Positions 26,712 to 27,807 of a stretch of 64,000 nt of DNA are shown here, piece by piece. The DNA comes from Pseudomonas antarctica (GTDB lineage Bacteria; Pseudomonadota; Gammaproteobacteria; Pseudomonadales; Pseudomonadaceae): assembly GCF_001647715.1 (NCBI RefSeq), contig NZ_CP015600.1:2666001-2730000 (forward strand), written 5' to 3'. Below the pieces are notes generated by a model. That model made no database searches. It had not been told where the DNA came from and worked only from the letters and a program-made list of their open reading frames with translations. The first letter of the stretch is position 1. Each line of letters starts with the position of its first letter. The position numbers and the translations under genes are program-made.

Positions 26712-26784
26712 TGTGGGAGCGGGCTTGCTCGCGAATACGTTGTGTCAGTCGCCAGATACATTGACGGACCCACCGCCATCGCGG
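26712..26784. repeat. Left part of a REPIN split by an insertion
   Basis: REP of the GGGCTTGC class (TGTGGGAGCGGGCTTGC) plus spacer, ending in GCCATCGCGG where the 996-bp element begins. The missing right arm resumes at 27791 with GCGAGCCCGCTCCCAC. Confidence 0.85.
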
Positions 26785-27111
26785 CATAGGTATCTACGCA
26801 ACTATTTGTGTCGCTTTAGGCCTGTGAGGGGGTTAGGTAGGTTGAGTACATATCCGTTGCTGCGGTAACGGCTGCTTAGGGTTCCGCCCTTACGGCGGGT
26901 CACTTTTTTACAAAGCGCCTAAAAAAGTAACCAAAAAACGCTTTGCCCCACCACTCGGTGCCTCGCCTGGGCTCGGCATGCCCGCACTCCGGCTTGAATC
27001 CGTGGGCCGCCGCAATGGGCCATCCTTGGCCCAGTGCGGCTAACCCGGCGTCCTGCCGGGTTACCCACGGATTCAAGCCTGCGTTCGGCCATCGTGGTTA
27101 ACGGGGCCTGT

Positions 27112-27447
27112 CAGATCAAGATCAAAAGCAGAGCACGGCGGCCTGGTAGCCGACCTGAGTGGTTGAAGCAAAAGCAGGGCAACAGCACAGCAACACCACT
27201 TTTACCGGATGAAATGAGTTCCAACTGTGGGAGCGGCGGTGCGACGATTCGACTTGCTCGCGAATGCGGTGTGTCAGTCAACTTATTTGTAACTGACACA
27301 CCGCATTCGCGAGCAAGCCCGCTCCCACATTTGATTGGGTTCAGCTTCCAAGATCAGGTCGGCTGTAAGGCCGCCTCGGTTTTGCTTTTGATCTAACCAC
27401 TCAGGTCGGCTACCAGGCCGCCGTGCTCTGCTTTTGATCTTGATCTG
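27112..27447. repeat. Inner palindrome with perfect 53-bp arms
   Basis: Bases 27112-27164 and 27395-27447 are exact inverted copies (both contain GATCAAAAGCAGAGCACGG or its complement). The right arm is preceded by a diverged direct copy of itself at about 27354-27394 (AGGTCGGCTGTAAGGCCGCC). It looks like a second repeat family inserted into the larger element. Confidence 0.8.
27226..27329. repeat. REPIN in the centre of the element, left arm with a 15-16 bp insertion
   Basis: The right arm is a normal REP of the GGGCTTGC class. The left arm reads TGTGGGAGCGG, then about 16 extra bases (CGGTGCGACGATTCGA), then CTTGCTCGCGAATGC. The inner sequences GCGGTGTGTCAGT and ACTGACACACCGC also pair, giving a longer stem than the other REPINs here. 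Confidence 0.75.
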
Positions 27448-27790
27448 CTGTTGATCTTAGGCGCCCCGTTAACCACGCTGGCCGAACGTAGGTATTACGG
27501 AGCGGGTAAACCGGCAGGACGCCGGTTTAGCCGCGACGGGGCAGGGACGGCCCGTCGCGGCGGCCCGCTTCGTGATGCCGGAGTGAGGGCACACCGAGCC
27601 CAGGCGAGGTGCCGAGTGGTGGGGCAAGAGCCTTTTGGTTACTTTTGGGCTCCTTTCAAAAGTGACCCGCCGTAAGGGCGGAACCCATGTCAGCCGTTAC
27701 CCAAACAACGGATATGTACTCAACGCCCCCCCGACAACCACAGCACTCAACCCGTAAAAAAAGATGTGTAGATACCTATGGCCATCGCGG

Positions 27791-27807
27791 GCGAGCCCGC
27801 TCCCACA
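27791..27807. repeat. Right remnant of the split REPIN
   Basis: GCGAGCCCGCTCCCACA completes the REP arm interrupted at 26784. Removing the element and one copy of GCCATCGCGG restores a normal REPIN. Confidence 0.82.

Follow-up and report, generated by a model that had tools for sequence, protein, structure and literature searches.

REPs are known targets of insertion sequences, among them ISPsy8, which duplicates 3 bp of its target, and ISRm22, which duplicates 6 bp (PMC1525189). Like the REP-targeting ISPsy8, ISPa11, ISPpu9/10 and ISRm22 as partially described, the element reported here inserts at a fixed place in REPs, but it duplicates 10 bp, reaches 1016 bp and was found with no transposase carrying its ends among the places listed in our searches. 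With MITEs it shares terminal inverted repeats at the exact copy ends, a duplication of fixed length (22 of 35 elements) and the absence of a transposase inside. MITE-like repeats are reported from Pseudomonas fluorescens, and a 320-bp family named R200 with 47 copies from its strain SBW25 (PMC2718517). The likeness between R200 and the arm described below rests on size and copy number, and identity of the two would be a guess.

The second point of comparison is the group of decoy RNAs comprising RsmX, RsmY, RsmZ, CsrB and CsrC. NMR and calorimetry on RsmE, as excerpted, define the stem-borne hexaloop ANGGAX as a high-affinity site in which N and X are variable and omission of N lowers affinity, and the stem-loops of RsmZ are closed by a C-G pair (PMC4005645). 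The 127-nt RsmZ unites a terminator with eight GGA motifs (PMC4005645). CsrR1 and CsrR2 of Alcanivorax are described as single sRNA loci (PMC9788540), and we set them beside the arm by description only. The Rfam family TwoAYGGAY (RF01731), with two tandem hairpins bearing GGA loops, has been tabulated among candidate RNAs from human gut, Gammaproteobacteria and Clostridiales (PMC2864571) and was predicted by others to bind CsrA (PMC4333381).

The window analysed here, a stretch of 64,000 nt from the Pseudomonas antarctica genome, holds an element whose insertion into a REPIN was the subject of an original prediction. A conserved structured RNA with two nearly invariant GGA loops in the arms of this element was not seen at that time, and this dispersed, selected, outward-reading RNA with two CsrA/RsmA-type loops is the more important finding than the insertion. 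The arm shares with the decoys the A(N)GGAX loops on C-G closed stems, though two GGA hairpins per copy are spread here over 38 copies. From TwoAYGGAY as tabulated it differs in being a high-copy repeat with further helices that lies inside mobile elements. No description of a high-copy or mobile TwoAYGGAY or of a repeat bearing Rsm/Csr sites was found in the literature searched, subscription papers being mostly outside its scope; intergenic repeats of such sort have so far been catalogued as MITE-like or without an assigned function.

The element, its target site and its relatives

The gene-less element spans 26785–27780 (996 bp) and ends in terminal inverted repeats that are perfect over 13 bp (CATAGGTATCTAC). 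Exact direct 10-bp copies of GCCATCGCGG flank it at 26775–26784 and 27781–27790, and when direct-repeat lengths from 3 to 15 were tried at its ends, only 10 gave a match, with 0 mismatches. A mechanical inverted-repeat search revealed long arms with complementarities of 78% over 193 nt, 90% over 67 nt and 74% over 42 nt, self-alignment an inner inverted pair of 53 perfect nt, and the centre is occupied by a REP-type inverted pair (27226–27329) with perfect 26-nt arms at 27253–27278 and 27292–27317, one half of which has additional bases relative to a consensus built from ten aligned copies. The exact repeats at these coordinates confirm what the original prediction had claimed, namely a 996-bp element with perfect 13-bp ends and a 10-bp duplication inside a REPIN, with long imperfect arms, inner perfect arms and a central REPIN (Table 1). 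The claim that no transposase or other gene lies inside is borne out as well, as there is only one ORF of at least 80 aa (120 aa with a GTG start, no family search). Both neighbouring genes, whose names cusA and iolR are putative labels from the original prediction, converge on the element. Among the aligned copies, two different REP types occupy the same central place (27226–27329 in the window and the centre of L006 and L008), as if exchanged or replaced.

Table 1. Positions of the features of the element and its flanks in the window.
Feature	Position	Strand	Basis
Target REPIN, left part	26712..26784	.	With right part aligns to uninterrupted REPIN of L242
Target duplication GCCATCGCGG, left copy, part of a REP	26775..26784	.	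Exact 10-bp direct repeat at element ends
Left terminal inverted repeat CATAGGTATCTAC	26785..26797	+	Perfect; 26 genome sites (≤1 mismatch) vs 1 for reversed-pattern control
Terminator-like hairpin, inward-facing, left arm, antisense of GGA strand	26883..26899	+	Pattern match only
Left arm, structured RNA core	26951..27097	- (leftwards, outward)	Model R1 167.4 bits, full length; TwoAYGGAY 51.1 bits
Left arm hairpin A, loop and closing pair C-AAGGAT-G, hexaloop ANGGAX	27021..27028	-	ANGGAY in 42/42 representatives
Left arm hairpin B, loop and closing pair C-AGGAC-G, pentaloop	27049..27055	-	A(N)GGAY in 41/42 representatives
Inner 53-bp perfect inverted pair, left copy	27112..27164	+	Inverted-repeat search, self-alignment
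Central REPIN	27226..27329	.	REPIN at this place in ten aligned copies, two REP types
Inner 53-bp perfect inverted pair, right copy	27395..27447	-	Inverted-repeat search, self-alignment
Right arm, structured RNA core	27473..27619	+ (rightwards, outward)	Model R1 149.2 bits, full length; TwoAYGGAY 34.4 bits
Right arm hairpin B, loop and closing pair C-AGGAC-G	27515..27521	+	Alignment
Right arm hairpin A, loop and closing pair C-AGGGAC-G	27542..27549	+	Alignment, folding
Terminator-like hairpin, inward-facing, right arm	27666..27682	-	Pattern match only
Right terminal inverted repeat	27768..27780	-	Perfect; same genome count
Target duplication, right copy	27781..27790	.	Exact 10-bp direct repeat
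Target REPIN, right part	27781..27807	.	With left part aligns to uninterrupted REPIN of L242

Empty sites were surveyed in 30 loci with the downstream gene, one of which is the window's own, and in eight of the other 29 the upstream gene adjoins. The end motif (≤2 mismatches) was absent from the 3.4-kb locus of each of these eight two-gene relatives, and between their two genes nothing but REP-type sequence matched the element. One of the eight, L242, carries an unbroken REPIN at the same place, which aligns with the joined flanks of the window and supports the earlier statement that removal of the element restores an intact REPIN. The nesting order of insertion proposed before is likewise in agreement with the ends, the duplications, the multiple copies and the uninterrupted site of the relative.

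The genome of the window contains 125 stretches that match the element, full or near full-length relatives being 83–93% identical. The count of its 13-bp end against the reversed-pattern control (Table 1) indicates a family of ends that is not due to chance, and in multiple genome copies these repeats coincide with the copy ends. Eight two-ended copies are present in this genome: six measure 971–1016 bp, a seventh 941 bp and an eighth 455 bp. A 10-bp direct repeat was seen in seven of them with 0, 1, 0, 3, 3, 2 and 1 mismatches and was missing in the 455-bp eighth copy; by eye, the eight copies are flanked by REPs interrupted at a similar position. A 19-bp form of the end is present in 45 of 398 genus genomes with up to 62 sites per genome, the reversed control giving 0 among the genomes listed. 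When elements from this and other genomes are taken together (n=35, 57–1016 bp; L153, L154 and L168, which have a flank in common, possibly represent a single place at contig ends, and the end filter removed L005), 22 of the 35 show a 10-bp duplication with ≤3 mismatches and 13 lack a clear one. Left and right flanks swapped between different elements pass the same test in 234 of 1190 cases, a background that exists because the elements share REP targets, and some of the 10-bp duplications lie outside obvious REPs (L144, L169). The element is a member of a gene-less terminal-repeat family (57–1016 bp) that prefers REPs, and we regard its mobile history as highly probable.

Several copies deviate from the common form. 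A 57-bp element (L114:1501-1557) consists of almost only the two terminal repeats and has a 10-bp duplication with 4 mismatches. The inner arm part is repeated at 289- or 267-bp spacing in L054:1618-2477, L056:2529-2617 and L058:1579-1991, with no second full arm matching nearby. The left arm of the window (26785-27193) is 90–98% identical to many single-arm copies of its own genome (L054-L063), whereas matches to the right arm alone reach about 87–88%, and this contrast suggests exchange between copies.

A full-length copy with a transposase, which the original prediction had proposed to look for, was not seen among the places listed: the 13-bp end searched in 57 relatives, the 19-bp end in 398 genus genomes and the end with 1 mismatch in three dense genomes all led to short gene-less pairs only among the places or matches listed, and contig ends resembling a long shared element were set aside for the same result. 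In viral contigs no autonomous element was seen with the end pattern, and the two loci found have a single end each and no arm, one of them inside a reading frame. A plasmid collection searched with the arm gave no match. A phage collection gave one record, MT121968.1 (L236:2540-2689), in which an arm located beside tail genes breaks off at its TTTTGG motif; adjoining it is an annotated transposase gene, which from its protein we take to be of IS3 type. Because the adjoining arm is truncated, this gene was not accepted as the mover. The sequence also changes at the TTTTGG motif in the own-genome copies L007 and L009.

A structured RNA in both arms

The two arms are copies of the same structured RNA, some 270 nt long, and both are read outward from the centre of the element. 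At a gathering score of 43, the Rfam model of TwoAYGGAY places the left arm above (51.1 bits, outward strand) and the right arm below the threshold (34.4 bits), so that by score only the left arm belongs to this family, while the two GGA-loop hairpins are present. The same model matched above its gathering score in 16 of 18 other arm-bearing loci scanned and gave no match in 14 control genomes. MicroRNA-named Rfam matches on the central REPIN fell below their gathering scores and were taken for palindrome artefacts.

To describe the structure, 94 full arms were taken from this and other genomes, 27 partial matches being left out, and 42 representatives less than 90% identical were kept and aligned. 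RNAalifold returned 71 pairs for these, 31 of them with changes on both sides compared to 17.7 in shuffles. Paired cells amount to 98.1% vs 88.8% in shuffled alignments and cells changed on both sides to 249 vs 68.3, a value that 0 of 500 shuffles reached, with the relatedness between copies kept in these covariation counts. Sliding the structure by 1–3 columns lets the pairing drop to 33–44%. In a further set of 24 loci aligned to the core covariance model (147 positions, 50 pairs), 46 of the 50 pairs covary with 338 both-sided cells vs 87.6, as counted on 33 distinct rows that include 3 antisense ones, before identical rows were merged.

The strand on which the structure is kept can be read from one-sided changes in mostly Watson-Crick pairs, which on the GGA strand are G-U in 33 and A-C in 4 cases, with ratios of 57:5 and 78:11 in two further sets; p-values for these ratios are only indicative, given the dependence between cells, the use of the GGA strand for predicting the structure and the fitting of the further sets to the model. 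The consensus energy is -109.3 on the GGA strand vs -92.5 on the other, and 38 of 42 sequences are more stable on the GGA strand. The excess of G-U over A-C points to selection on an RNA transcribed outward, unlike what a DNA palindrome alone would give, and the pattern of changes makes it almost certain in our view that the arm is a structured RNA on the GGA strand.

This RNA is not confined to the element. Core model matches were obtained in 78 of 99 genus genomes, several with at least 31 copies, and in 13 of 249 genomes of a phylum survey; copy numbers per genome are lower bounds, since up to 31 were scored in the genus and up to 12 in the phylum. By kinship, five of the 13 genomes belong to the same genus (the window's own included), four to two other genera of the family and one to another family of the order, while the remaining three are labelled 'same class' only, one being a weak match (37 bits). 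Distinct sense matches in the 24 loci mentioned above number 31, of which 19 come from genomes outside the genus (36 rows including 3 antisense matches and two same-place pairs), and GGA is present in both loops in all 31 with the stems largely rewritten. When named genomes were scanned with a pattern, 80 loci were listed, 18 of which contain model matches, 30 in total and several weak, from Halothiobacillus, Gammaproteobacteria bacterium 28-57-27, PMG_192, PMG_258, Cellvibrionaceae, Solimonas and a few others. GGA is kept in loop B in 29 of these 30, loop A being pre-fixed by the search pattern in one match per locus. Of 41 loci of other genomes fetched by the terminal repeat alone, in which L108 coincides with L147 and L107 is perhaps a chance site, 13 contain a model match. 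As the arms (78/99 genomes) are spread more widely than the exact terminal repeat (45/398), the RNA and the mover look separate and later combined.

Among 48 chosen genus loci from other genomes, a pair of strong arms (both ≥100 bits) is divergent in 23, tandem in 2 and convergent in 0. Reading of the spacers between divergent arms disclosed REP-type palindromes in 14 of 24, the window included, which means that the arm-REPIN-arm composite recurs in the genus; a strict pattern with both REP halves is present in 6. Convergent arm pairs occur in nine loci from a Halothiobacillus sp., bacterium 28-57-27 and PMG_192 (L290, L294, L296, L312, L315, L324, L331, L334 and L338).

GGA loops and their possible partner

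Hairpin A bears the loop ATGGAT, AGGGAT, AAGGAT or AGGGAC, closed by C-G in every case (42/42), and hairpin B bears AGGAC, ATGGAT, AGGGAT or AAGGAT in 41 of 42 representatives and AGTAC once. A(N)GGAX directly on a C-G closed stem, the form expected of Csr/Rsm binding sites, is hence found in loop A in 42/42 and in loop B in 41/42, although 28 of the 42 have in hairpin B the pentaloop, which is of lower affinity. Hairpin C varies in its loop, with 14 forms among the same 42 arms. Since the GTAAG loop of a further hairpin is kept in 38/42 and numerous other unpaired columns never change, GGA does not stand out by conservation alone. In the GGA loops A, G, G and A are fixed, N is free or missing and the last base is mostly C or T, a pattern that follows the rules described for RsmE (PMC4005645).

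The genome of the window has 38 model copies with GGA in both loops in 38/38 and GGAYG in both in 37/38; one copy lacks the A before GGA in loop B and another has lost a closing pair. A core copy on the 135-kb second contig (G000:C2:58020-58145) has a changed closing pair in loop B and keeps GGA. An earlier recognition pass over 86 cores left loop B unrecognised in 6 and loop A in 5. In the right arm of the window, the stem of hairpin A is changed on both sides relative to the family (ATGGG/CCCAT to ACGGG/CCCGT), and a G-G mismatch directly under the closing pair may weaken this site. Genes for CsrA-family proteins were detected in 10 of 10 genomes tested, three in that of the window; these genes are very common, which makes their presence weak evidence. 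Judged by the loops, the arm RNA is probably bound by an Rsm/Csr protein.

As the best explanation, which we hold to be moderately probable, we propose a non-autonomous mobile element that disperses an Rsm/Csr-binding RNA related to TwoAYGGAY. A MITE-like element with a 10-bp duplication and a preference for one REP position would have inserted into the REPIN between two convergent genes, moved by a putative transposase supplied in trans, the movement itself being read from ends, duplications and the empty site. Its cargo would be two divergently arranged copies of the ~270-nt RNA, each with two neighbouring C-G closed A(N)GGAX hairpins on the outward strand, and covariation together with the G-U over A-C asymmetry suggests that the arm is under selection as outward-strand RNA. 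Transcription could arise by read-through from a convergent neighbour or via an unseen promoter. A sense arm would then offer a high-affinity-type hexaloop and, about 30 nt away, a pentaloop, and the two sites together could accommodate one Rsm dimer. The 38 copies could serve as a decoy scattered over the genome or, as 3'-end elements, recruit Rsm locally.

That the copies work as decoys inside the cell is less probable than binding. It is a tentative idea, with the odds somewhat against it, that a mobile repeat has made an Rsm/Csr recognition site its dispersed cargo, so that dozens of copies per genome, in Pseudomonas-type and other gammaproteobacterial genomes, titrate or recruit a global regulator. 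If expressed, the family would add up to 76 candidate Rsm sites to the genome of the window and change the view of the regulator's free concentration; if true, repeat copy number and insertion sites would tune this free pool and the fate of neighbouring transcripts. Whether a global post-transcriptional regulator can be rewired by a mobile repeat could be tested directly on this family. Should there be no binding, it is still the case that one repeat family holds an RNA fold that both the genus and other Gammaproteobacteria conserve, and the existing Rfam model covers only part of this high-copy structured RNA, whose covariation is strong.

The RNA might also be real and selected with its GGA loops serving another partner or the repeat's own spread in place of Rsm/Csr, for example as guide-like RNA, as transposase-binding RNA or as single-stranded DNA. 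Dispersal in many copies would fit this, as would the frequent inverted pairs, divergent in the genus (23/48 loci) and convergent in nine loci elsewhere as if pairing mattered, and insertion sequences of the IS110/IS1111 kind, some of them REP-targeting, use a non-coding RNA according to partial accounts. We nevertheless judge both the general idea and these examples unlikely, as no transposase gene was seen in the arm spacers read, where the longest open stretch is 139 aa (no family search), and the loop variation follows the RsmE rules as excerpted.

Transcription and folding of the locus

For a full two-armed transcript one long hairpin is preferred, with an MFE of -712 or -716 kcal/mol compared to -444 or -434 kcal/mol when pairs are limited to 180 nt, so the ~1-kb hairpin proposed earlier is supported as thermodynamics. 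As sense and antisense arms pair in such a transcript, two-armed copies may mask themselves, and transcripts of single arms or outward ones would be the active form. These folding models leave two options: local hairpins form faster and prevail, or the two-armed copies hide their own GGA loops and the single-arm copies are active. A consensus scan of the region gave no sigma-70-type promoter-like site. GacA-box-like sites, sought in the 4-kb locus by consensus, numbered one with 3 mismatches against 0.61 expected, no more than chance would give, so that by consensus scans the locus differs from sRNA genes of the RsmX/Y/Z type in lacking its own GacA-controlled promoter. With the neighbouring genes converging, read-through from either side passes the antisense arm and then the sense arm, giving one GGA-sense arm per direction, and from their sequence the inward terminator-like hairpins would limit such read-through. 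The long-hairpin fold, the lack of a promoter-like site in the scan, the inward terminator-like hairpins and the G-G mismatch weaken the decoy role of the window copy more than that of the family.

The original prediction had suggested that the element may act as a two-way insulator, which is taken here as a transcriptional insulator or terminator between the convergent genes. This idea receives weak support from the inward terminator-like hairpins in both arms, which account for two of the four terminator-like sites in the region (1.3 +/- 1.2 in shuffles), while the T-tracts of both are offset from the stem. Among 21 chosen loci of the same genome, called with a crude ORF caller, the neighbouring genes are arranged tail-to-tail in 12, co-directionally in 7 and head-to-head in 2. 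The tail-to-tail position would suit an insulator, but intergenic repeats of such genomes are biased to tail-to-tail places anyway, as far as the excerpted report goes (PMC2718517), and in 21 chosen loci of other genomes the same crude caller gave just 6 tail-to-tail arrangements next to 10 co-directional, 2 head-to-head and 3 undetermined ones. As an insulator would also leave the conserved GGA loops on the other strand unexplained, we consider this role quite improbable.

Finally, a plain selfish MITE without a role at the RNA level, whose hairpins arise incidentally from nested palindromes and stay similar through gene conversion and recent spread, would account for the nested repeats, the high copy number, the REP targeting and the identity of up to 98% between arms of different copies, yet it appears very doubtful, as DNA palindromes would not give both-sided stem changes across deep divergence or a wobble asymmetry between strands, and the loops persist while the stems are largely rewritten.
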